From an uncultured Bacilli bacterium (GTDB lineage Bacteria > Bacillota_I > Bacilli_A > RFN20 > CAG-826), in contig CALVYH010000001.1 in the NCBI GenBank assembly GCA_944372115.1, positions 124,001-188,000 on the forward strand: a stretch of DNA of 64,000 bases. The letters are read 5' to 3'. Below are positions 4,413-17,817 of this stretch, one piece after another. The position numbers and the translations under genes were made by a program. Each line of letters starts with the position of its first letter. The first letter of the stretch is position 1. The notes beneath the pieces were generated by a model that searched no databases, was not told the origin of the DNA, and saw nothing but the letters and a program-made list of their open reading frames with translations.

Positions 4413-4829
4413 ATGGAAGAAATTAGTAGAAATAAAACACAAGAAATCGCAATGCAAATCCTCTCTTCGTTTTTAATTTGTCAAGATGAAGGAGTTGTCA
4501 TTAATATCGAACAAACATTCGAGGATTTTTTAGGAATGAGTTATGAAGAAACTCCAACATTTTTAAAAGAAATTATTATTAAAGCTTTAAAAAATGAAAA
4601 AGAAACAATTACATTAATTTCTAAATATTTAAAGAATTGGAAATTTTCTCGACTTAATACTTGCATCAAAGCTATTTTAATTTTAGCAGTCACAAATTTT
4701 AAATATATTGAAGGAATGAATAAAAATATCGCCATAAATATCGCTGTTGAATTAGCAAAAAAATATGGAGAAAAAGAAGATTATAAATTTGTTAATGCTA
4801 TTTTAGATAATTGTTTAAAAAATGAATAA
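4413..4829 (+). CDS. nusB: Transcription antitermination protein NusB
   Basis: All-helical 138-residue protein that with NusE (S10) binds boxA RNA and keeps RNA polymerase elongating through rRNA operons. The N-terminal segment NKTQEIAMQILSSFL and the C-terminal NIAINIAVELAKKYGEKEDYKFVNAILD are typical of NusB. An in-frame ATG lies upstream at 4365, but translation from there would run through the Asp23-like gene in another frame, and the N-terminal NusB motif begins right after the ATG at 4413. No clear Shine-Dalgarno sequence precedes it. The end overlaps xseA by 8 bases, as in the common nusB-xseA-xseB order. Confidence 0.9.
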   Translation: MEEISRNKTQEIAMQILSSFLICQDEGVVINIEQTFEDFLGMSYEETPTFLKEIIIKALKNEKETITLISKYLKNWKFSRLNTCIKAILILAVTNFKYIEGMNKNIAINIAVELAKKYGEKEDYKFVNAILDNCLKNE

Positions 4830-6057
4830 TTTTGAAGAAGAATTAAATAATAATATTAAAAATCATACTTTTAGTGTAATAGAGATTAATAGTTTAGTTA
4901 AAGAAATATTTGATAGTTCTCCAATTTTTAAATCGCTCAAAGTAAAGGGTGAAATTTCTAATTGGAAGGGCAAAAATATTACAGGACATATCTATTTTTC
5001 TCTTAAAGATAATTCAAGCACTATTAAATGTGTCATGTTTAAATATGACACTTTTTCTTTAAAAGAAGATTTTAAAGATGGAGATGAAGTTATTTTAACT
5101 TGCTCTTTATCTGTTTATTCTCCTGGTGGATATTATCAATTAATAGTTAAAAATATTACTAGAGAAGGTGAAGGAGACATTTTATTAAGAAAACAAAAAT
5201 TAATTGAAAAGCTATCAAAAGAAGGTCTTTTTGATGAATCTAGAAAGAAAAAAATACCTCTTTTTCCATATAAAATAGGTATTATTGTTGGAAAAAATAG
5301 TGCTGCAAGTAAAGATTTAGAGACAAATATTATTAGAAGGTGGCCATTAATTGAGATTAATTTTTACTATAGTTTAGTCCAAGGTAAAGAAGCTCCTTTA
5401 GATTTAATTAAAAATATCATTAAAGCTGATAATGATTCTAACAATGTTTTAATTATTGCAAGAGGTGGAGGAAGTATTGAAGATTTATCTGCTTTTGATG
5501 ATGAAACATTAATTCGAACTATATCTAAAATAAAAACTCCTTTGATAAGCGCTGTTGGCCATGAAATAAATCGATCAATCACAGATTTTATCGCTGATAA
5601 ATATGCTTCAACTCCAACAGGCGCAGCAGAAATTGTAGTTCCTAATAAAGACGATGTTTTACTTGATTTAAAACAAAATAAAGATTATATAAATACAATA
5701 ATGAATAATTATTTATCGATTTATATTCATAAATTAACTATTTTAAAAACAAATAAATCATTAACAAGTTTAGATAAAATATATGATTCATATTATGAAA
5801 AAATAAATAATTATTCGATAAAAATTAATAATTTATTTACTAATTACATTTTAAATTTAAATAATAAAATAAATAAATTTAAACTTCTTGCTGATTCTTC
5901 CAATCCTTATAATATTTTAAATAAAGGGTATTGTATTATAAAGAATGAAAATAATGAAATTATTTATAATTCTAATCTATTAAAAAAAGAAGGAAATAAT
6001 AAAATAATTTTTAAAGACAAAGAGGTTAATGTAACAATCATTAAAAAGGAGAAATAG
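4822..6057 (+). CDS. xseA: Exodeoxyribonuclease VII large subunit
   Basis: 411 residues. An N-terminal OB-fold, with VKGEISNWKGKNITGHIYFSLKD, is followed by the catalytic core containing FPYKIGIIVGKNSAASKD, LIIARGGGSIEDLSAFDDE and SAVGHEINRSITDFIADKYASTPTGAAE, then a coiled-coil C terminus rich in Asn and Lys. With XseB it degrades single-stranded DNA to short oligonucleotides in repair. The start overlaps the end of nusB by 8 bases and xseB follows 3 bases later, so the subunits are translationally linked. Confidence 0.95.
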   Translation: MNNFEEELNNNIKNHTFSVIEINSLVKEIFDSSPIFKSLKVKGEISNWKGKNITGHIYFSLKDNSSTIKCVMFKYDTFSLKEDFKDGDEVILTCSLSVYSPGGYYQLIVKNITREGEGDILLRKQKLIEKLSKEGLFDESRKKKIPLFPYKIGIIVGKNSAASKDLETNIIRRWPLIEINFYYSLVQGKEAPLDLIKNIIKADNDSNNVLIIARGGGSIEDLSAFDDETLIRTISKIKTPLISAVGHEINRSITDFIADKYASTPTGAAEIVVPNKDDVLLDLKQNKDYINTIMNNYLSIYIHKLTILKTNKSLTSLDKIYDSYYEKINNYSIKINNLFTNYILNLNNKINKFKLLADSSNPYNILNKGYCIIKNENNEIIYNSNLLKKEGNNKIIFKDKEVNVTIIKKEK

Positions 6058-6060
6058 TTT

Positions 6061-6249
6061 ATGAAAGAAAAAGAACTAACTTTTGAAGAAAAATTAAAAC
6101 GTCTAGAAGAGATTGTAAATAAAATGAATGAAGGAAATGCACCTTTAAATGAAATGATTTCTTTATATGAAGAAGCTCAAAAATTAATTAAAGAAGAAAC
6201 AGAAACTTTAGATAATGCTAAAGCAAAAATAAATGAATATAGTAAATAA
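6061..6249 (+). CDS. xseB: Exodeoxyribonuclease VII small subunit
   Basis: 62-residue helical protein with the family signature LTFEEKLKRLEEIVNKMNEGNAPL and LYEEAQKLI. It binds the coiled-coil region of XseA to form the holoenzyme. AAGGAG 6 bases upstream fits this ATG. It is the last gene of the nusB-xseA-xseB block; the following dinB may have its own promoter. Confidence 0.92.
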   Translation: MKEKELTFEEKLKRLEEIVNKMNEGNAPLNEMISLYEEAQKLIKEETETLDNAKAKINEYSK

Positions 6250-6261
6250 TTAGTAATTTAT

Positions 6262-6267
6262 TAGTAT
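6262..6267 (+). promoter_or_regulatory. Candidate -10 box of dinB
   Basis: TAGTAT ends 6 bases before the dinB ATG. There is no Shine-Dalgarno sequence and no good -35 hexamer, so if used it would give an essentially leaderless transcript. Confidence 0.35.
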
Positions 6268-6273
6268 ATTTCT

Positions 6274-7479
6274 ATGAGTAAAATTATACTTCATATTGAT
6301 TTAAATACTTTCTTTGTTAGGTGTGAAGAAATCAAAAATCCTTCCTTAATAGGTAAACCAGTTGCTATTGGAAACGAAGGAAGAGCTGGTATAGTTTCAA
6401 CTTGCTCATATGAAGCTAGAAAATATGGTGTTAGCTCAGGAATGCCAATGTTTCAAGCTAAAGCTTTATGTAAAGATTTAATAATTTTACCTCCTGATTC
6501 GAATTTTATCGAACTTTTAAGCAAAGAATTTATTTCTCACATAAGAAAATATAGTGAAATTATCGAGCAAATTTCATGTGATGAATGCTATGTTGATATA
6601 ACTGAATCTTTTAAAAAATATGGTAGAAATAATATTTATTGGTATTTAAAAGATATTCAAAATTCTTTATACAAAAAGACCAAATTAAAATGTTCAATAG
6701 GTGTTGGGCCTACTAAATTTTTAGCAAAAATGGGTTCTGATTATAAAAAACCAATGGGAATTACAATAATTAGAAAAAAAGACGTAAAAAAAATATTATT
6801 TCCTTTAGACGTTAATTCATTTTATGGAATAGGAAAGAAAACCGCTCCAAAATTATATAAACTAGGTATAAAAACAATAGGCGACTTATATTATAAAATC
6901 AAATTAAATATTCCAGAAGTTAATGATACTTTAATGGAATCAAAAAAATATATTATTGATTGTTTAGAAGGAAGATCTTCAGATGTAGTTCATGTTTTTT
7001 CAGATGAACAAAAATCAATTGGAACTACAAGAACTTTATTGAGTGATTCGAATTCTAGAGACGAAATTCGTGATTTTTATTTAAAAGAAGTAGATCGAAT
7101 TATAAAAGACATGAAAAATGAAGGAAAATTAACAAAAACGATTCAACTTACTTTAAAAGAAGCATCAAAAACTGGCGATTTCAAAACTACTACATATTCA
7201 AAAGCAATCGGTGATTATACTGATAACGAAACAAAAATTAAAGAAGCTGCTAATAAATTATTTGAAAGTTCATATAAAAATCAAACGATAAGATTAATAG
7301 GCTTTAGTGTAAAAAACTTAATAAATAGAAATGAAGCCGTTACACAAATGACTTTTGATGATTACATGATTCATGAAAAAGAGAGTGAAACTTTTCTTTT
7401 AATTAATGAATTAAATAGAAAATTTAATAAAGACGTATTAAAAAGAGTATCAGATTTAAAAAAAGAAAATGGAAATTAA
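6274..7479 (+). CDS. dinB: DNA polymerase IV (Y family)
   Basis: 401-residue translesion polymerase. The palm carries IDLNTFFVRCEE (first catalytic Asp) and SCDECYVDIT (catalytic Asp-Glu pair); VSTCSYEARKYGV and the thumb helix-hairpin-helix YGIGKKTAPKLYKLGI are typical of DinB. The little-finger domain follows. It is error-prone and bypasses lesions at stalled forks. The gene overlaps xerD by 11 bases. The C terminus is short and no clear clamp-binding peptide is obvious. Confidence 0.94.
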   Translation: MSKIILHIDLNTFFVRCEEIKNPSLIGKPVAIGNEGRAGIVSTCSYEARKYGVSSGMPMFQAKALCKDLIILPPDSNFIELLSKEFISHIRKYSEIIEQISCDECYVDITESFKKYGRNNIYWYLKDIQNSLYKKTKLKCSIGVGPTKFLAKMGSDYKKPMGITIIRKKDVKKILFPLDVNSFYGIGKKTAPKLYKLGIKTIGDLYYKIKLNIPEVNDTLMESKKYIIDCLEGRSSDVVHVFSDEQKSIGTTRTLLSDSNSRDEIRDFYLKEVDRIIKDMKNEGKLTKTIQLTLKEASKTGDFKTTTYSKAIGDYTDNETKIKEAANKLFESSYKNQTIRLIGFSVKNLINRNEAVTQMTFDDYMIHEKESETFLLINELNRKFNKDVLKRVSDLKKENGN

Positions 7480-8353
7480 TCAAGCTTTTCAAAAATATTT
7501 AAATTTTTTATTAATAGAAAAAAATTTACTTCCTCAAACAATAGAAAATTATAAGGAAGATTTTTTGCTTTTTAAAAAATATTTTCCTTATATTTTAGAT
7601 ACATCAGATTTAAGTAAGGATGACATAAATGATTTTAACTATAATTTGTCGATTAATAACTTAAAAACCTCATCAATAAAAAGAAGATTATCAACAATTA
7701 AAAATTTTTATATTTTTTTAGAAACTGAAGGAATTGCTGATAATATTATTGGAAAAATTTATACACCAAAAAGTGAAAAATATTTACCTGAATATTTAAC
7801 GATTGAAGAGGTTGATGCATTAATTAATTCATTTGATATTTCTAAAGATGATGAATTAAGAGATAAAGCAATCATTGAAACAATGTATTCCTCTGGATTA
7901 CGTGTTTCTGAACTTATTAATTTAAAAATTAAAGATATAAATACTCAAGAAAAAATAATAAAAGTACTTGGAAAAGGATATAAACAAAGAGAAGTACCAA
8001 TAAGAAATGAAGCTCTTTATTTTATTGATTTATATTTAAAAAATGTGCGTAAAAAAATTATTTCTAATGATAAAACTACCCTTTTTGTGAATAAAAAAGG
8101 CCATAAATTAACAAGGCAATATATTTTTGAAATGATAAGAAAACATGCGAAAATAATTAATTTAAATAAAACTATTTCTCCTCATACGTTAAGACATTCT
8201 TTTGCTACCCATTTATTATCTAAAGGAGCCGATTTAAAAACTGTAAAAGAGATGTTAGGACATGAAAATATAGAAACAACCCAAATTTATACTCATGTTG
8301 CAGAAGAAAAAATTATGAGTGCTTACGATAAATTTCGGAACAAAAACGATTAA
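7469..8353 (+). CDS. xerD: Tyrosine recombinase, XerD-like
   Basis: 294-residue site-specific recombinase with an N-terminal SAM-like core-binding domain and a catalytic domain with all residues in place: Arg145 in SSGLRVSEL, Lys in GKGYKQREV, His239 and Arg242 in HTLRHSFATHLL, His265 and nucleophile Tyr274 in LGHENIETTQIYTHV. Xer recombinases resolve chromosome dimers at dif during division. The gene sits directly before deoB, as xerD (ripX) sits before drm in Bacillus, which favours XerD over XerC. A dif-like site lies 3.9 kb downstream. Start overlaps dinB by 11 bases. Confidence 0.88.
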   Translation: MEINQAFQKYLNFLLIEKNLLPQTIENYKEDFLLFKKYFPYILDTSDLSKDDINDFNYNLSINNLKTSSIKRRLSTIKNFYIFLETEGIADNIIGKIYTPKSEKYLPEYLTIEEVDALINSFDISKDDELRDKAIIETMYSSGLRVSELINLKIKDINTQEKIIKVLGKGYKQREVPIRNEALYFIDLYLKNVRKKIISNDKTTLFVNKKGHKLTRQYIFEMIRKHAKIINLNKTISPHTLRHSFATHLLSKGADLKTVKEMLGHENIETTQIYTHVAEEKIMSAYDKFRNKND

Positions 8354-8370
8354 AAAAACATGCAAATTAA

Positions 8371-8399
8371 TACATTTATATATTGATTATTGCTATAAT
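8371..8399 (+). promoter_or_regulatory. Candidate promoter of deoB
   Basis: TACATT, 17-base spacer, TATAAT. The -10 box is perfect and the -35 box weak. The ATG is 30 bases past the -10 with AAGG in between, so this unit has a normal short leader. Confidence 0.55.
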
Positions 8400-8429
8400 A
8401 GTTAAGGTAATTTTATTAAGGTAACGTTT

Positions 8430-9647
8430 ATGAAAAAATTTAAAAGAATTATTTGTATTGTACTTGATAGTTTAGGAATCGGAAATGCTAAAGACGCTAT
8501 AAATTTCCATCAAAATAAAGAAGTAAATGATTTGGGATCAAATACTTTTAAACACATTAGCGAAAGTTTTGAAAACGGACTTAATATTCCTACCTTAAAT
8601 TCATTTGGAATTGCTGATTTAGATGAAATTAAAGGTTGCAAAAAAGTATCTCATCCTAATTCTTATTCACTTAGATTAAACGAAGCTAGCAATGGGAAAG
8701 ATACGATGACTGGCCATTGGGAAATGATGGGTATTTTAACAAAAAAACCATTCCAAACTTTTACAGAAACTGGTTTTCCACAAGATTTAATTGATGAACT
8801 TGAAAAAGAAACTGGTTATAAATTTATTGGTAATTATGCAGCTAGTGGAACTGAGATTTTAAAAGATTTAGGCGAAGAATCTATCAAAGAAAATTCTTTA
8901 ATAATCTATACATCTAGTGATAGTGTTCTTCAAATTTGTGCAAGCGAAGAGACTGTTGGATTAAAAGAACTTTATAGAGTTTGTGAAATTGCTCGTAAGC
9001 TATGCATGAAAGATGAATGGTTTGTTGGAAGAATTATCGCTAGACCATTTATTGGAAAAACAAAAGATACATTTAAAAGAACATCCAATAGACATGATTA
9101 TGCTGTTTCTCCAAGTGGAATTACAGTAATGGATATTTTAAAAGATAATGGATATCAAGTTAATTGCGTTGGAAAAATCAATGATATATTTAATGGCGCA
9201 GGTGTAACTTCAACAGTACATATTTCATCAAATATCGATGGCATGAATAAAACAATGGATATTATTAAATCTAAAGAATTTAATGAAGGTTTCTGTTTTG
9301 TAAATTTAGTTGAATTTGATAGTGAATATGGACATAGGAGAAACCCTGTTGGATATGGGAAAGCTATTGAGACTTTTGATGAACAATTAAAAGAATTAAT
9401 TAATTATTTAAATGATGAAGATTTATTAATGATTACAGCTGATCATGGGAACGATCCAACATGGAAAGGTACAGATCATACTAGAGAAATGGTCCCATTA
9501 TTATGTTTTTCAAAATCGTATACTAACGGGAAAACGTTAGATGATAGAGATTCATTTGCTGATATTGGCGATACAATTTTAACAAATTTCAATCTAAAAA
9601 AAGATGATACAATGATTGGTAAAACAATAGAAGAATTACTTAAATAA
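8430..9647 (+). CDS. deoB: Phosphopentomutase
   Basis: 405-residue enzyme of the alkaline-phosphatase superfamily that interconverts (deoxy)ribose 1-phosphate and 5-phosphate in nucleoside salvage. Metal-binding and catalytic elements seen: VLDSLGIGNAKDA at the N terminus, GKDTMTGHWEMMG with the phosphorylated Thr, and near the C terminus TADHGNDPTWKGTDHTREMVPLL. It follows xerD as in Bacillus. Its product deoxyribose 5-phosphate is the substrate of DeoC, encoded at 37793. The lipoprotein gene starts 19 bases after the stop, so deoB probably leads a three-gene operon. Confidence 0.95.
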   Translation: MKKFKRIICIVLDSLGIGNAKDAINFHQNKEVNDLGSNTFKHISESFENGLNIPTLNSFGIADLDEIKGCKKVSHPNSYSLRLNEASNGKDTMTGHWEMMGILTKKPFQTFTETGFPQDLIDELEKETGYKFIGNYAASGTEILKDLGEESIKENSLIIYTSSDSVLQICASEETVGLKELYRVCEIARKLCMKDEWFVGRIIARPFIGKTKDTFKRTSNRHDYAVSPSGITVMDILKDNGYQVNCVGKINDIFNGAGVTSTVHISSNIDGMNKTMDIIKSKEFNEGFCFVNLVEFDSEYGHRRNPVGYGKAIETFDEQLKELINYLNDEDLLMITADHGNDPTWKGTDHTREMVPLLCFSKSYTNGKTLDDRDSFADIGDTILTNFNLKKDDTMIGKTIEELLK

Positions 9648-9666
9648 AATGAAAGAAGGGTAAAAA

Positions 9667-10653
9667 ATGAAAAAAAGTGTTTTGATTTTAAGCGCGTTTT
9701 TAATTTCAACTTTAACAAGTTGCCACGCTTCTACTAATATTTATAATGAAAAATTTGATTATAAATTATTAATGCCTGTCGGTGCTCCAGCATTACCATT
9801 ATATATGGAAATATTAATGGAAGATAATGTTGAAACTACATCAACACCAACAACAATTCCACCTGAATTTTCTAATGAAAATTATGATTTTTTAGTTTTT
9901 GATTCTACTCAAGTAGCAAACATTTTAAAACAACAAGAAAACCCATTATATGAATTTAAACTTATGCTCACAGGTGGTAATTTTCATGTTTTAGGTTTTA
10001 ATAAAGAAGTTGGATCAACTCCGAACGAAGGAGAAAATATTTATTCTTTCCAAAAAACTGGTACAGCTAATAAAATGTTTGTTAATATTTATGGAAATAT
10101 TATTCCTGAAGAAAATTACTTTGATGCAGTTGGAAATTTACAAACTGAATTATTAAAATTAGATTCTAATTTTTCTATAGAAGGAGAAACAATCGATTGG
10201 GCTGTAATTAGTGAACCTCAATTAACTAATTTAATGTCTAAATGGTCTCAAAACGGAATAGATACTTCTAAAATTTTAGATATAAATTTGCAAAAAGCAT
10301 TTAAAGAAGCTAATGGCGATACTTATACATATGATTATGTACCTCAAGCAGCTTTATTTGTTAGAAAAGAATATGAAAAAGAAAATGAAGAAGTAGTTGA
10401 AAAAATCGTTGAAAGAATTAATAACGCTGTTAATGATGTTATTAATAATCCTGAAAATGTTGCGACAACAATCGATGAAAAATTTTCTGATCAAAATGAA
10501 CAAACAAGTACTTTTGGTTTTAATTCTACTTTAATAAAAAATGTTCAAAAAGATGGTAGAAATGGATTTGGTGTTGTTCCTACTTCAATTAATGAAATGA
10601 TGGATGAAACTGTAATTAACCAATTTTTATCTATCGTTAATCAAAATAAATAG
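9667..10653 (+). CDS. ABC transporter substrate-binding lipoprotein
   Basis: 328 residues with a lipoprotein signal: KKS, a hydrophobic stretch, and the lipobox ending TLTSC with Cys19 as lipid anchor. The mature part begins with KLLMPVGAPALPLYMEIL and resembles periplasmic-binding-fold proteins of the NMT1/sulfonate/nitrate group, mainly because its partner is a SsuC/TauC-type permease. The substrate cannot be told; a pyrimidine precursor, sulfonate or other small anion are all possible. AGAAGGG precedes the ATG. It lies between deoB and the permease, and no ATPase gene is nearby. Confidence 0.75.
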   Translation: MKKSVLILSAFLISTLTSCHASTNIYNEKFDYKLLMPVGAPALPLYMEILMEDNVETTSTPTTIPPEFSNENYDFLVFDSTQVANILKQQENPLYEFKLMLTGGNFHVLGFNKEVGSTPNEGENIYSFQKTGTANKMFVNIYGNIIPEENYFDAVGNLQTELLKLDSNFSIEGETIDWAVISEPQLTNLMSKWSQNGIDTSKILDINLQKAFKEANGDTYTYDYVPQAALFVRKEYEKENEEVVEKIVERINNAVNDVINNPENVATTIDEKFSDQNEQTSTFGFNSTLIKNVQKDGRNGFGVVPTSINEMMDETVINQFLSIVNQNK

Positions 10654-11603: not shown

Positions 11604-12134
11604 ATGGATTTTATTAACGCTTATCATTTATCAAGATGGACTTTATATGCTAAAAACGGAAATAAAAATATCGAAGAAACATTAAATAATGAATATAAAT
11701 CTCCATTACCTACAGTAAATTATCCGATTTTTAAAGGACAAATATTTCAATATGTTTCAAAATTTGATAAAAATAATAATCCTATTTTTAAATTGGCTTT
11801 ATCTTTAGAAGATAGTTTAAGTATAGATAATACAGTTTTTATTTGTCCTTTAGAAACATTTAATAAATTAAATAATAAAATAGATAAGAAAAAATTTATT
11901 GAAATAGGCTTATTACCATTAATTAGTAAAAATAATATTTTTTATGCTCGTTTAGAAGGAGCAAAGATGATTAATAAAAAGTTAATTAATCTGAAAGATA
12001 ATAAAGTTTTATCAAGAGGTTATGGACAATTAAGTATTGATCAAGTCGAAAGAATACAATTATATTACTTAAGATTAACTAATAATAAATTCGAAATGTT
12101 TCAGAAATATAAGAAAAATAACTATGTTTGTTAG
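11604..12134 (+). CDS. Hypothetical protein next to dif
   Basis: 176 residues, not recognised. AAGGAGGAA 7 bases before the ATG is the strongest ribosome binding site on the left arm, which supports a real gene. The protein is soluble-looking, rich in Asn, Lys and Leu, with no signal peptide, no membrane segment and one Cys near position 78 plus a C-terminal Cys. The segment SRGYGQLSIDQVERIQLYYL looks helical. It is isolated between a terminator and the dif-like site, and the 15-bp element shared with comEA lies upstream, which suggests shared control. No function is proposed. Confidence 0.7.
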   Translation: MDFINAYHLSRWTLYAKNGNKNIEETLNNEYKSPLPTVNYPIFKGQIFQYVSKFDKNNNPIFKLALSLEDSLSIDNTVFICPLETFNKLNNKIDKKKFIEIGLLPLISKNNIFYARLEGAKMINKKLINLKDNKVLSRGYGQLSIDQVERIQLYYLRLTNNKFEMFQKYKKNNYVC

Positions 12135-12234
12135 TAGTTTTTTAGTAGATATAGTGTTTATTTTTTGTGGAAAACTATAAATAGAATATTTTTAATAAAT
12201 CTATAATTAGGTTGATTGTTTATTATAAAAATAT

Positions 12235-12256
12235 CGATAGTTATCGTATTTTTTCT
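12235..12256 (+). terminator. Weak terminator candidate
   Basis: CGAT and ATCG pair around a 4-base loop, followed by TATTTTTT. The stem is short. It lies 100 bases after the unknown gene and just before the dif-like site. Confidence 0.3.
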
Positions 12257-12263
12257 CTTTTTT

Positions 12264-12291
12264 ATTTTACATAATATGTATTATACGAAGT
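12264..12291 (-). other. dif: dif-like chromosome dimer resolution site
   Basis: Read on the - strand the 28 bp consist of the arm ACTTCGTATAA, a 6-bp spacer TACATA and the arm TTATGTAAAAT. Compared with the B. subtilis dif site as I recall it, 24 of 28 positions agree. Coding strand flips exactly here: all genes to the left are +, nearly all to the right are -, as expected where the two replichores meet. An xerD gene lies 3.9 kb away. XerC/XerD would recombine here under FtsK control. Confidence 0.82.
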
Positions 12292-12322: not shown

Positions 12323-12928
12323 CTAATTTAAATAATATAAATACATATATTCACTTAAATAATTAGAATTACCTTTCTTATTTTTTAAAAATATTTTTGT
12401 TTCTTTTACCACTTCAATAAAACCTGTTTCGAAATTTTCCTTCATCATTTTAATCATATAGGATGAATCATAATTTCTAAGCGGATCTATTTTGTCTGCT
12501 GCAAATAAGATTTTTGAAATTATATTCATATTTGCATTACCAGTTGTATGAAATTTTATTGCTTCTAATATATCATTATCATCGATACCTAAATCGTTTT
12601 TAACCAAGTAAGCACCTACAAATGAATGATATGCATATTGTGGAAGATTTAAATATTCTTTAAAATTTTCTTTCATTATTTTGAATTCACTCTTTTCATC
12701 TTCGTATTTTCCAACATCATGTAATAATCCACAAATATAATATTTTAAAGGATTATCAAGTTTATTGCTTAAAGCAATCTCATACATTAAATTAGCAACA
12801 CTTAAAGAGTGTAAATAACGATTTTCTTTAAGTTTTTTACATAAATAACAATTTAAAAAAGGGTCAATATCAACTATTTTCCCTTTTTTTAATGCAAAAC
12901 GATATTTTTTAAAGCAAACTACTTCCAT
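12323..12928 (-). CDS. yqeK: HD-domain hydrolase, YqeK family (Ap4A hydrolase)
   Basis: 201 residues. The HD phosphohydrolase core is seen in RYLHSLSVANLMYEIA, GLLHDVGKYEDE, YAYHSFVGAYLV and the late Asp in ILFAADKIDPLR, giving the metal ligands of the YqeK family, which splits diadenosine tetraphosphate symmetrically into two ADP. The N terminus of about 30 residues precedes the domain. It ends the yqeG-yqeH-yhbY-yqeK run; nadD, which usually stands before yqeK, and rsfS, which usually follows, are both missing here. It begins 5 bases after yhbY. Confidence 0.85.
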   Translation of the reverse strand: MEVVCFKKYRFALKKGKIVDIDPFLNCYLCKKLKENRYLHSLSVANLMYEIALSNKLDNPLKYYICGLLHDVGKYEDEKSEFKIMKENFKEYLNLPQYAYHSFVGAYLVKNDLGIDDNDILEAIKFHTTGNANMNIISKILFAADKIDPLRNYDSSYMIKMMKENFETGFIEVVKETKIFLKNKKGNSNYLSEYMYLYYLN

Positions 12929-12933
12929 TTTAT

Positions 12934-13242
12934 CTATTTTAAAAGCGTAATATGATCTTTAGCTTCTTTATTTGGCCTATATAAAAGCAATGTATTGCCG
13001 ATATTATCAACAACTTCTGCTTTCAAAGATGAAACTAAGTCTAAAATTAATTCATTTTTAGAATCAATATCAGAAAATGAAGATTTTAAAAAGGAAATCT
13101 TGATCAATTCATATTTTATAAGGTAATTATCGATGTTTTTTAAAACATTACTGCTTAATGTTCCTTTTCCAATATTAAATTTTAAAATATTTCTTTCTAA
13201 AGCAATCTTTTTTAAATAAGTTTTATTTTTATTATTTAACAT
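12934..13242 (-). CDS. yhbY: YhbY/CRM-domain RNA-binding protein
   Basis: 102 residues forming one CRM domain, the fold of YhbY (YqeI), which associates with pre-50S ribosomal particles. It shows the starting KTYLKKIALERNILKFNIGKG with the conserved GKG turn (family GLxGLT region is divergent) and the ending VDNIGNTLLLYRP. An upstream in-frame codon would start inside yqeH at 13290, but the family begins at ML followed by KQRKYL-like residues, which fits the ATG at 13242. That ATG overlaps the yqeH end by 11 bases. Confidence 0.82.
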   Translation of the reverse strand: MLNNKNKTYLKKIALERNILKFNIGKGTLSSNVLKNIDNYLIKYELIKISFLKSSFSDIDSKNELILDLVSSLKAEVVDNIGNTLLLYRPNKEAKDHITLLK

Positions 13243-14362
13243 TTTTAAATTTTGCACGTGTTGTGTAAACGTACACTCCTTTTGGTACAAAAACTCTAAA
13301 TTTTTGATTGTTTCCTTTAAATTGAACCCAACCTAAACCCAATACACCAATATCTCTTTCACCGGTTTCAGTAATTTCAAAATCATAAACATCGAAATTA
13401 TTTAAATTTCTAAATTTAAATGAAGTATTTGTTTGATCACCATTTTTTAAAATAGAATCAAAGAATTTTAAAGCATCACCTCTTTTAGCTTTAATGGTTA
13501 TTTTTGGAGAAGCATAACAATGAACTGTCGTTTTTTCTTCGGTTAATTGTTGGATAAATGCTAACCCACCAATTGCTAAAGAAACTTTATCGTTTATATT
13601 GAATTTTCGATCTTCAATAGCTTTTTTAGGAACAATATAGTTAACAATTGGCTTTTCTAAAACACCCAATAAAGAATTATTAATAGGGAATCCTGGGACT
13701 TCATAAATATATGTTTTATCAGTAATTGGAATTTGGAATCCTCTTAAAGACGTATTTGGGAAAGTATATGTAACAATATATTTATTTGTTTTATTTTCAA
13801 AATTCTTTAAAATTTCACTAATTAAAGCAGATTTGCCACTCGTTGAAGAGCCAACAAAATAAACATCCCTACCTTCGCAATTAGCTCTAATAAGTTTTCT
13901 TAATTCATCAATATGATAATCGCTATTTATTGAAGTTAAAATTGTTTCTTTAACTTTTAAAGAAGAAACCCTTAAACGATGATTTACATATGAAATTAAT
14001 TGTTCATCTTCACTATCTTTTGGCATTAAATCACGTTTATTTGCAACAACAATAACATCTAAATCACTTAATAAACTTGTAGCTTCTGAAGGAAAACCAC
14101 CTTCAAAAGAAAAAAGATCAATAACATAAACAACTAAGGCATTCTTTTCTTTAATTGTTTTTAAAATACTCTTAAATTCATCATTTAAAACAATAATATT
14201 ATCTTCAGTTTTTTCTTCATTAAAACATTTATCACAAAGCAAAACACCATCAGGATATTTTTTTAAAATCAAAGACGTAATATATCCTTCTTTTTCTGGA
14301 CTTTCTGTTTGTAAAATTGCACCACAATGTGAGCATCTTTTAACCTTCTTTAGAATTGACAT
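13232..14362 (-). CDS. yqeH: Circularly permuted ribosome-assembly GTPase YqeH
   Basis: 376 residues. The N-terminal zinc motif has CSHC and CDKC pairs; the GTPase motifs come in permuted order, with NKRDLMPK (G4) near residue 110 and the P-loop GSSTSGKSALI (G1) near residue 170. G3 reads YEVPGFP, with Glu where many homologues have Asp. YqeH is needed for 30S subunit assembly. GGAGGG lies 8 bases before the ATG. The gene overlaps yqeG upstream by 23 bases and yhbY downstream by 11. Confidence 0.93.
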   Translation of the reverse strand: MSILKKVKRCSHCGAILQTESPEKEGYITSLILKKYPDGVLLCDKCFNEEKTEDNIIVLNDEFKSILKTIKEKNALVVYVIDLFSFEGGFPSEATSLLSDLDVIVVANKRDLMPKDSEDEQLISYVNHRLRVSSLKVKETILTSINSDYHIDELRKLIRANCEGRDVYFVGSSTSGKSALISEILKNFENKTNKYIVTYTFPNTSLRGFQIPITDKTYIYEVPGFPINNSLLGVLEKPIVNYIVPKKAIEDRKFNINDKVSLAIGGLAFIQQLTEEKTTVHCYASPKITIKAKRGDALKFFDSILKNGDQTNTSFKFRNLNNFDVYDFEITETGERDIGVLGLGWVQFKGNNQKFRVFVPKGVYVYTTRAKFKNVK

Positions 14363-15022: not shown

Positions 15023-15247
15023 ATGAACGAAAATAAAAATTTAAAAATGAAAAATACAATAGCTAAAATTTTACAAATTGTTGGCTTATTTATAATGATT
15101 TTATCACAAATTTTAGCAATTCCTTTTTTAATAGCAACTATATGTTTAACTTATAAAAGAGAAGACGTTGATATGAATTATACTTTTTTTGAAACACTTC
15201 TTCTATCAATAATTTGTTTCATTTACATAATAATTAATTTTATTTAA
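15023..15247 (+). CDS. Small two-helix membrane protein
   Basis: 74 residues, not recognised. A short basic N terminus is followed by two hydrophobic segments, TIAKILQIVGLFIMILSQI with its continuation, and FFETLLLSIICFIYIIINF at the C terminus. An in-frame ATG at 15005 exists, but it overlaps the -10 box; the ATG at 15023 lies 7 bases behind TATAAT. The gene is one of few on the + strand of the right arm and its stop overlaps the parC end by 4 bases, tail to tail. No function is proposed. Confidence 0.5.
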   Translation: MNENKNLKMKNTIAKILQIVGLFIMILSQILAIPFLIATICLTYKREDVDMNYTFFETLLLSIICFIYIIINFI

Positions 15248-17817
15248 TCTCCCATATCATCAAAAATCGAAATTTGTTCATATTTTTCTTCATCCTCAAT
15301 ATTATTAGCGGATTGATTTTCATTGCTTTCAACAACATCTACTTTGAAAGATGAGTCTATTTTAGGAGTATCGAATTTAAAAAGATCTTTAATTTTGCGA
15401 TCATTTGGTATTTCATCAATATTTTTCTTACAATATTTATCAATTGGAGTTAAATGAAAATCGTTTAATTTAAAATTAAATAATACGTCATTATCATAAA
15501 TTCCATATAAATTTAACTCTTCATCCTTATTTTCAATCTTTTTATAATAAATTAATTTATGAGGATCGCTTTTAAATGATTTAAACACCATCTGAGTTGC
15601 ACCTAATCTTTTTGTTAAGGTCAAATTAGAAGTATCATAAAGTCGATACATGCCACCATCAGTCAAAAACATTATTTTCTCTTTTACATCTTTTTTTAAA
15701 GCTATTAAAGCTCTTAATTGTGAATTTCTAAGCGTTGAAATAGCTTTAATTCCGCTAGTTTTTAATCCAGTGGCAGTAATTTCTTGCTCGTTAAAGAAAG
15801 TAGCATTACCACTTTCAGTTAGAATCAAACAATCGCTATTATTAGTTAAAACCTCAACATCTGCAATTTCATCGTTTTTTAATAATTTCATGCATTGAAT
15901 AGGCTTAGAATATCTTTGAGCATAAAATTCACTTAATTTTGTCTTTTTAATTTGACCATTCCTACTAATTAAAGCAATCGAACAATCAATATTAAAATCA
16001 CTGACAATAATCGTTTTAATAATATATTCGCTTAAAGGTAAATTTATCATGTAATTGATGTGTTTTCCTTCATCTTTCCATTTATTTTCAAATATTTCAT
16101 GAGCAGGAATAAATAAATAATTACCCAAATTCGTAAAAGCCAAAATATAATCTAAAGACGAAATTAATTTAGCTAAAACAATAGAATCGCCATCTTTTAT
16201 ACCAGGAAGTTGTCCTTCGCAAGCTTTATAGGATTTAATAGAAGATCTTTTAATATATCCATCTTTAGTAACAACAACATAAAAATCTTCTTTTGCAATT
16301 AAATCACGTTTATTGATATTAATATTTTCAACTTTATCAGAAATTTCACTTCTTCTTTCCGAATTATAATTTTCAATAATGTTTTTTAAATCATCACTAA
16401 TATATTTCGTTAATTTTTCTTTTGAAGATAATAAAGAAGCGATTGTAGAAATTGTTTTTTCTAAATCTTTCTTCTCGTCTAAATATACTTGTACATCAGT
16501 ATGTGATAATTTATAAAGACGAATATTTAAAATAGCTTCAGCTTGATCTTCATTGAAACTATATTTTTCAATAAGTTTATTTTTTGCATCATCTTTATTA
16601 ACGCTATTTCTAATCAAAGCAATGATTTCATCTATAATCGAAATAGCTTTAATTAATCCATAAACAATATTCAATCTCTTTCTAGCTTTTGCTAAATCAA
16701 AAGAAAGAGCTTTTTTATTAACTGTTATTAAATGTTCGATATAAATATCTAAATAATCGATTAATGATAATGTTTTAGGATGATTATTACAGATCGCAAC
16801 AATATTTGCATTATAAGTAATTCTAAGATTGGTTTTCTTATAAAGATATTGAACAACTATTTTTGGATCGATATCTTTTTTTAATTCAATAACGATATTA
16901 ATATCATCTCCACTAGATAAGTCTTTTACATCGGTAATACCATTAACTTCTCTATCACGACGTATTTCATCAATAGAATGAACTAATTCTTGCTTTTCAA
17001 TTCCATAAGGAATTTCGCTAATAATGATTTGAGTTGAATCCGATAAAGTTTTAATCTCTAATTTAGACCCGATTTCAAATTTTCCTCTACCAGTTTCATA
17101 CATTTGACGAACACCACCATTATCATAAATTATTCCGCCAGTAGGAAAATCTGGTCCTTTTAAATGAACTAATAAATCATCTAATGTGCATTCAGGATTA
17201 TTAAGTCTTTCAATAACAGCATTACAAATTTCACCTAAATTATGTGGAGGAATTTCGGTTGCTAAACCTACAGCAATGCCTTTGCTTCCGTTTATAAATA
17301 AATTTGGAACATAACTAGGCAAAACAGTTGGCTCCAACTCTTCATCACTAAAATTAAGTGTAAAATCAACTGTATCTTTCTCAATATTTTTAACTAAAAG
17401 CATCGAATATTTCGATAATCTTGCTTCAGTATAACGATATGCAGCAGCTGGGTCTCCGTCAATCGAACCATTATTTCCTTGGAAATCAACTAAAATTTGG
17501 CTCATCTTCCAAGTTTGGGACATTCTTGTTAAAGCATCATAAATAGATGAATCACCATGAGGGTGAAATCTACCCATAACATCTCCGACAATTTTTGCAC
17601 ATTTTCTTGTAGGCTTGTCAAAAGTATTATTATTCGTAAACATCGAATAAATAATTCTTCTTTGAACCGGTTTTAAGCCATCTCTTGCATCTGGAATTGC
17701 TCTATCTTGAATGACATATTTTGCATAAATAGCAAAACGATCACTCATCAAATCATCGAGAGCTTGAGATACTATATTTTCAATAATTTGTGGAGTTTCT
17801 TTCTTTTTTGTAGCCAT
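15244..17817 (-). CDS. parC: DNA topoisomerase IV subunit A
   Basis: 857 residues. The breakage-reunion domain shows ALDDLMSDRFAIYAKYVIQDRAIPDARDGLKPVQRRI, then RKCAKIVGDVMGRFHPHGD and the catalytic Tyr in AAAYRYTEARLSKYSM. The C-terminal beta-pinwheel lacks an obvious GyrA box, and the partner and neighbour plsY match the parE-parC locus of Firmicutes, so ParC rather than GyrA. The tetramer ParC2ParE2 decatenates replicated chromosomes. The ATG overlaps the parE stop by one base (TAATG). The acidic C-terminal tail is family-variable. Confidence 0.9.
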   Translation of the reverse strand: MATKKKETPQIIENIVSQALDDLMSDRFAIYAKYVIQDRAIPDARDGLKPVQRRIIYSMFTNNNTFDKPTRKCAKIVGDVMGRFHPHGDSSIYDALTRMSQTWKMSQILVDFQGNNGSIDGDPAAAYRYTEARLSKYSMLLVKNIEKDTVDFTLNFSDEELEPTVLPSYVPNLFINGSKGIAVGLATEIPPHNLGEICNAVIERLNNPECTLDDLLVHLKGPDFPTGGIIYDNGGVRQMYETGRGKFEIGSKLEIKTLSDSTQIIISEIPYGIEKQELVHSIDEIRRDREVNGITDVKDLSSGDDINIVIELKKDIDPKIVVQYLYKKTNLRITYNANIVAICNNHPKTLSLIDYLDIYIEHLITVNKKALSFDLAKARKRLNIVYGLIKAISIIDEIIALIRNSVNKDDAKNKLIEKYSFNEDQAEAILNIRLYKLSHTDVQVYLDEKKDLEKTISTIASLLSSKEKLTKYISDDLKNIIENYNSERRSEISDKVENININKRDLIAKEDFYVVVTKDGYIKRSSIKSYKACEGQLPGIKDGDSIVLAKLISSLDYILAFTNLGNYLFIPAHEIFENKWKDEGKHINYMINLPLSEYIIKTIIVSDFNIDCSIALISRNGQIKKTKLSEFYAQRYSKPIQCMKLLKNDEIADVEVLTNNSDCLILTESGNATFFNEQEITATGLKTSGIKAISTLRNSQLRALIALKKDVKEKIMFLTDGGMYRLYDTSNLTLTKRLGATQMVFKSFKSDPHKLIYYKKIENKDEELNLYGIYDNDVLFNFKLNDFHLTPIDKYCKKNIDEIPNDRKIKDLFKFDTPKIDSSFKVDVVESNENQSANNIEDEEKYEQISIFDDMGD

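Follow-up and report, generated by a model that had tools for sequence, protein, structure and literature searches.

Sequence and genomic context of a predicted XerCD-type dif site and its conserved linkage with xerD in an uncultured Bacilli lineage

INTRODUCTION

Systems that act on the chromosomal dif site employ either two recombinases or one. In classical two-recombinase systems, the recombinase genes are scattered in the genome, and the linkage of a recombinase gene to its site has been used to define single-recombinase modules (PMC2731167). Such physical linkage of the Xer gene and the site is known for the XerS/difSL and XerH/difH systems (PMC2731167, PMC5357621). The position of dif has also been compared with that of the GC-skew switch in a survey of 2,027 chromosomes, where the distance between the two averages 13 kb, and in Pseudomonas aeruginosa the skew switches at dif yet replication ends elsewhere (PMC6199493). 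In Escherichia coli, drug-induced cleavage by topoisomerase IV was reported at dif (Hojgaard et al. 1999, as cited in PMC7515245).

In this work, we analyzed a window of 64,000 nucleotides (C1:124001-188000, the whole stretch under study) from the genome of an uncultured Bacilli bacterium, whose assembly totals 1.25 Mb over 24 contigs at a completeness of about 96%. A first-pass annotation of the window had proposed a dif site at positions 12264-12291. On the evidence of sequence, position, and conservation, this site is almost certainly a canonical XerCD dif, well supported and of an ordinary, known kind. Since the recombinase genes of classical systems are described as scattered, the unusual part of the locus is the linkage between xerD and dif. 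We describe the site and its position on the chromosome, the recombinases and the translocase encoded in the genome, as well as the distribution of the linkage among related bacteria.

RESULTS

Sequence and uniqueness of the dif site

The letters of the window at 12264-12291 are ATTTTACATAATATGTATTATACGAAGT. They agree at 24 of 28 positions with the reverse complement of the Bacillus subtilis dif sequence, taken as printed in PMC3025954, which bears out the first-pass annotation of a 28-bp dif with the 11-6-11 layout; identity to the E. coli dif is 21/28. The site and its parts are the following.

12264..12291, minus strand: dif site; in standard orientation (minus strand), XerC arm ACTTCGTATAA, centre TACATA, XerD arm TTATGTAAAAT
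12281..12291, minus strand: half-site of XerC (CodV-type), 11 bp; 9/11 identical to the B. subtilis arm and near-invariant in 41 order loci
12275..12280, minus strand: central region of strand exchange, 6 bp; 5/6 identical to B. subtilis, columns 13-16 vary
12264..12274, minus strand: half-site of XerD (RipX-type), 11 bp; 10/11 identical to the B. subtilis arm, with ACATAA unchanged throughout the 41 order loci

A better match elsewhere in the genome would have spoken against the assignment, and over all 24 contigs no place matches B. subtilis dif better than the site at 12264-12291, the runner-up being at 22/28. No second match to the 24-base core with up to 3 mismatches was found in the 1.25 Mb assembly, so that at this threshold the site is present in a single copy in a genome about 96% complete. 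Shuffled window sequence gave no matches to the 28-mer. An AT-rich genome can produce dif-like words by chance, and in this one, with about 26% GC, as many as 371 places match B. subtilis dif at 18/28; given this composition and the steep rise of the counts below 22/28, identity alone is suggestive without being conclusive. The probability of a chance match becomes negligible, however, when it is considered that the 24/28 match is unique, that it falls at the switch of both skew and coding strand, and that it is conserved in the order with few matches to control patterns.

Conservation of the site in relatives

Retention of the site in relatives had been named as a further check, and a shorter core with at most 2 mismatches was found in 229 of the 273 order genomes searched, the reversed control pattern for this core having matches in about a dozen. 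The degenerate form of the site was present with 0 mismatches in 33 of 279 order genomes, with 0 matches for its control. An alignment of 41 order sequences shows near-invariant arms, with columns 13-16 as the most variable of the inner columns and with conservation falling to the background level beyond the 28 bp; because these sequences were selected by pattern, the conservation of the arms is partly built in, which does not apply to the drop at the edges.

Several observations were made on dif-like sites of other genomes. In a relative from the same genus (locus L138, G025:C3:89560-109550, about 4540-9996), a 5.4 kb insert separates dif from a second dif-like site. The insert encodes a Zot-like ATPase (PF05707) and a Rep_OBD protein (PF01719) together with small ORFs that are in part membrane-like, and it resembles a filamentous prophage that entered dif through Xer-mediated integration. 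Another relative carries the same dif core twice, as an inverted pair at a spacing of 150 bp (G069:C136:8708 and 8859), which could be an assembly artefact. Finally, two families of the class (f11 and f22) comprise many near-complete small genomes without any dif-like match; these are possibly Mollicutes that have lost Xer/dif.

Position of the site relative to GC skew and coding strand

As the first-pass annotation had anticipated, an extreme of the cumulative GC skew falls at the site: the maximum on contig C1 is at 136240, 24 bp from the start of the site at C1:136264. The skew minimum was found on contig C3 at 91207, just upstream of dnaA (91592), which places the switch at dif opposite the origin, with the two extremes on different, unordered contigs whose arm lengths are not comparable.

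The switch in coding strand described earlier holds, with some exceptions. To the left of the site, ORFs are on the plus strand except for two short overlapping ones; to the right, they are mostly on the minus strand, with exceptions at, for example, 19914, 22446, and 25826. Among the genes predicted on the entire contig C1 (236.6 kb), 85 are on the plus and 20 on the minus strand to the left, as compared with 9 and 74, respectively, to the right, and the optimal strand breakpoint of the contig is located between the two genes that flank dif.

The skew at third codon positions, taken in the coding direction, is -0.08 for leading genes and -0.26 for lagging genes, and this difference shows that the skew has a replication-strand component. 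Intergenic bases alone place the skew maximum at C1:144740, about 8.5 kb to the right of dif, at low resolution. Gene strand largely accounts for the skew maximum falling within 24 bp of dif: as the skew partly tracks the coding strand, the close coincidence amounts to the gene strand switching exactly at dif. In most relatives, the skew maximum is at most about 120 bp from dif when 1.5 kb is read on each side, and several relatives exceed this distance with 10 kb flanks. The point had been termed the replication terminus, and this term has to be narrowed: dif and the skew switch mark the segregation terminus, but not necessarily the place where the forks meet, which can differ from dif (PMC6199493).

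The position also bears on whether the site is an attachment site left behind by an Xer-using integrative element instead of a working dif. The same-genus relative mentioned above does carry a filamentous-phage-like element bounded by dif and a further dif-like site, and it is on this account that such an origin deserves consideration. In the genome studied here, however, there is one site only, no element adjoins it, and it is placed at the skew switch as a dif would be, so that we regard a remnant of an element as extremely unlikely and retain the assignment of the site as, almost certainly, the chromosomal dif.

Genes and structures flanking dif

The predicted dif site is located between two convergent groups of genes, for which the following features were assigned.

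6274..7479, plus strand: dinB, DNA polymerase IV, upstream of xerD
7469..8353, plus strand: xerD, tyrosine recombinase with dif as its predicted target; 314 bits with TIGR02225 (XerD), below its equivalog cut-off of 329.6, versus 291.6 for XerC
8430..9647, plus strand: deoB, phosphopentomutase, follows xerD and is retained together with it close to dif throughout the class; TIGR01696, 484 bits
12227..12262, plus strand: hairpin followed by a T run, likely the intrinsic terminator of the plus-strand operon just before dif; RNA fold -5.0 kcal/mol, z -2.6
12323..12928, minus strand: yqeK, the gene nearest dif in the right replichore, transcribed toward the site; TIGR00488, 106 bits
12934..13290, minus strand: yhbY-like ribosome assembly RNA-binding protein; TIGR00253, 55.8 bits, under the cut-off
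13232..14362, minus strand: yqeH-like ribosome biogenesis GTPase; TIGR03597, 234 bits, under the cut-off
15244..17817, minus strand: parC, topoisomerase IV subunit A; TIGR01061 (parC_Gpos), 846 bits
17817..19754, minus strand: parE, topoisomerase IV subunit B; gyrase B/Toprim domains, adjoins parC

Hairpins comparable to that at 12227..12262 were noted on visual inspection at the corresponding position in several relatives of the same genus, and the fold test revealed no significant RNA structure on the right side of dif. Two plus-strand genes between deoB and dif, at 9667-10653 and 11604-12134, have no Pfam match, and the latter is poorly conserved even inside the genus.

Recombinases and the FtsK translocase

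The xerD-like gene ends at 8353, which agrees with the distance of 3.9 kb to dif given in the first-pass annotation. A second Xer gene is located on contig C11, between trmFO and an rpsB-like ORF, and has XerC as its top model (309 bits, below the cut-off of 335). The R, K, HxxR, H, and Y motifs are present in both recombinases, as judged by eye. The genome thus encodes a pair of recombinases, XerD-like in the window and XerC-like on C11, both scoring below the strict NCBIfam equivalog cut-offs.

A recombinase gene adjoining the site is also what would be expected of a single-recombinase system of the XerS/difSL or XerH/difH type, and the linkage characteristic of these systems is present here. 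Such a system is nevertheless very unlikely in this genome: the site is a canonical 28-bp dif and not of the 31-bp difSL type, the genome has one Xer gene that scores as XerC-like and another that scores as XerD-like, and the XerS model, at 123 bits, is far below its cut-off of 267. The two-recombinase assignment is therefore kept in what follows.

FtsK is encoded on contig C1 and contains the alpha, motor, and gamma domains (PF01580, PF17854, PF09397), that is, it is a translocase with the gamma domain. A search for FtsK-orienting (KOPS-like) motifs returned A/G-rich words that are skewed to the leading strand, e.g., GAAGAAG, and track codon bias; words of the GAAGAAG type have no skew in lagging genes, and a KOPS-like motif is inseparable from codon bias in these data. 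The one motif with strong skew outside genes, AGTAGTGT, was rejected, since it is the repeat of a CRISPR array. This array is located outside the window (L018, C1:about 220650-222500), consists of about 30 units with 36-nt repeats, and adjoins csn2, cas2, cas1, and cas9 (genes to about 228430), corresponding to type II-A.

Conserved linkage of xerD and dif

The conserved gene order around the site is dinB-xerD-deoB-...-dif-yqeK-yhbY-yqeH-...-parC-parE. It was assessed in 40 order loci from four families, some of these loci being short; dinB, xerD, and deoB were found near dif in 40/40, yqeK in 39/40, yqeH in 37/40, parC in 36/40, and parE in 35/40. The parC and parE genes and xerD flank dif on different sides, parC and parE at a distance of about 3 to 7.5 kb, and at one locus (L176) xerD is found on the other side of the site. 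The 3.9 kb spacing of xerD in the window reflects this conserved dif-xerD-deoB linkage.

Beyond the order, xerD was near dif in 13 and deoB in 12 of the 20 loci read in other class families, with at most 6 for other window genes and 2 for parC or parE. For 30 further class genomes, the coordinates of dif were compared with those of matches to the XerD model, which placed xerD within 10 kb of dif in 15 genomes and at 10.8 kb in one more. Combined and counted from the listings, xerD is at most 10 kb from dif in 28 of 50 genomes of the class outside the order. The linkage was not seen in the sampled genomes of families f13, f18, f19, f24, f26, and f28, where some cases are obscured by contig breaks. 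As the genomes sampled for linkage are related and were partly picked for contig size, these counts are not independent trials; the sample of the phylum-level search consisted of genomes of the same class only. A published report of xerD-dif linkage was not found in the literature searched, which consisted chiefly of openly available papers.

DISCUSSION

By analogy with characterized systems, the predicted role of this dif is the separation of fused sister chromosomes before division. We infer the reaction and the order of its steps from the E. coli and B. subtilis systems. Toward the end of the cell cycle, DNA translocation by FtsK loaded at the septum would continue until the sister dif sites meet. 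XerD, activated by the gamma domain of FtsK, would then perform the first strand exchange, and XerC would complete the reaction, whereby the chromosome dimer would become two monomers.

The linkage of xerD and dif may be kept by selection, or it may be passively inherited in a block that seldom breaks up. Tentatively, dif and xerD, together with the topoisomerase IV genes within the order, might constitute a terminus module of a two-recombinase system that is held by selection and not by passive inheritance, a proposal that we consider somewhat improbable at present. That the position of the parC and parE genes could matter for topoisomerase IV cleavage at dif is a speculation.

The present analysis locates the segregation terminus of an uncultured lineage, and its added value is an order-wide set of dif sites, alongside the conserved xerD-dif linkage. 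In many relatives, the skew maximum of the fetched stretch is within about 120 bp of dif, in comparison with the survey mean of 13 kb (PMC6199493), a precision to which gene strand contributes. The conserved linkage is at odds with the scattered recombinase genes described for classical XerCD systems (PMC2731167) and could inform the origin of the linked single-recombinase modules.

Comparison with known systems puts the locus closest in kind to the dif of B. subtilis with its recombinases CodV/RipX (XerC/XerD), with which it shares the 28-bp length, the 11-6-11 layout, 24 of 28 positions, the use of two recombinases, an FtsK-family translocase, and the position at the terminus. The two differ in the location of the recombinase gene, since ripX in B. 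subtilis is far from dif, whereas xerD in this genome is 3.9 kb away. The XerS/difSL system of streptococci and lactococci and the XerH/difH system of epsilon-proteobacteria have in common with our locus a recombinase gene linked to the site near the terminus, but they combine one recombinase with an atypical site, in contrast to the two recombinases and the canonical 28-bp dif found here. The dif sites of other class members sampled have the same arms, with xerD no more than 10 kb away in 28 of 50 genomes, and differ from those of the order in that parC or parE is rarely near (2 of 20 loci).
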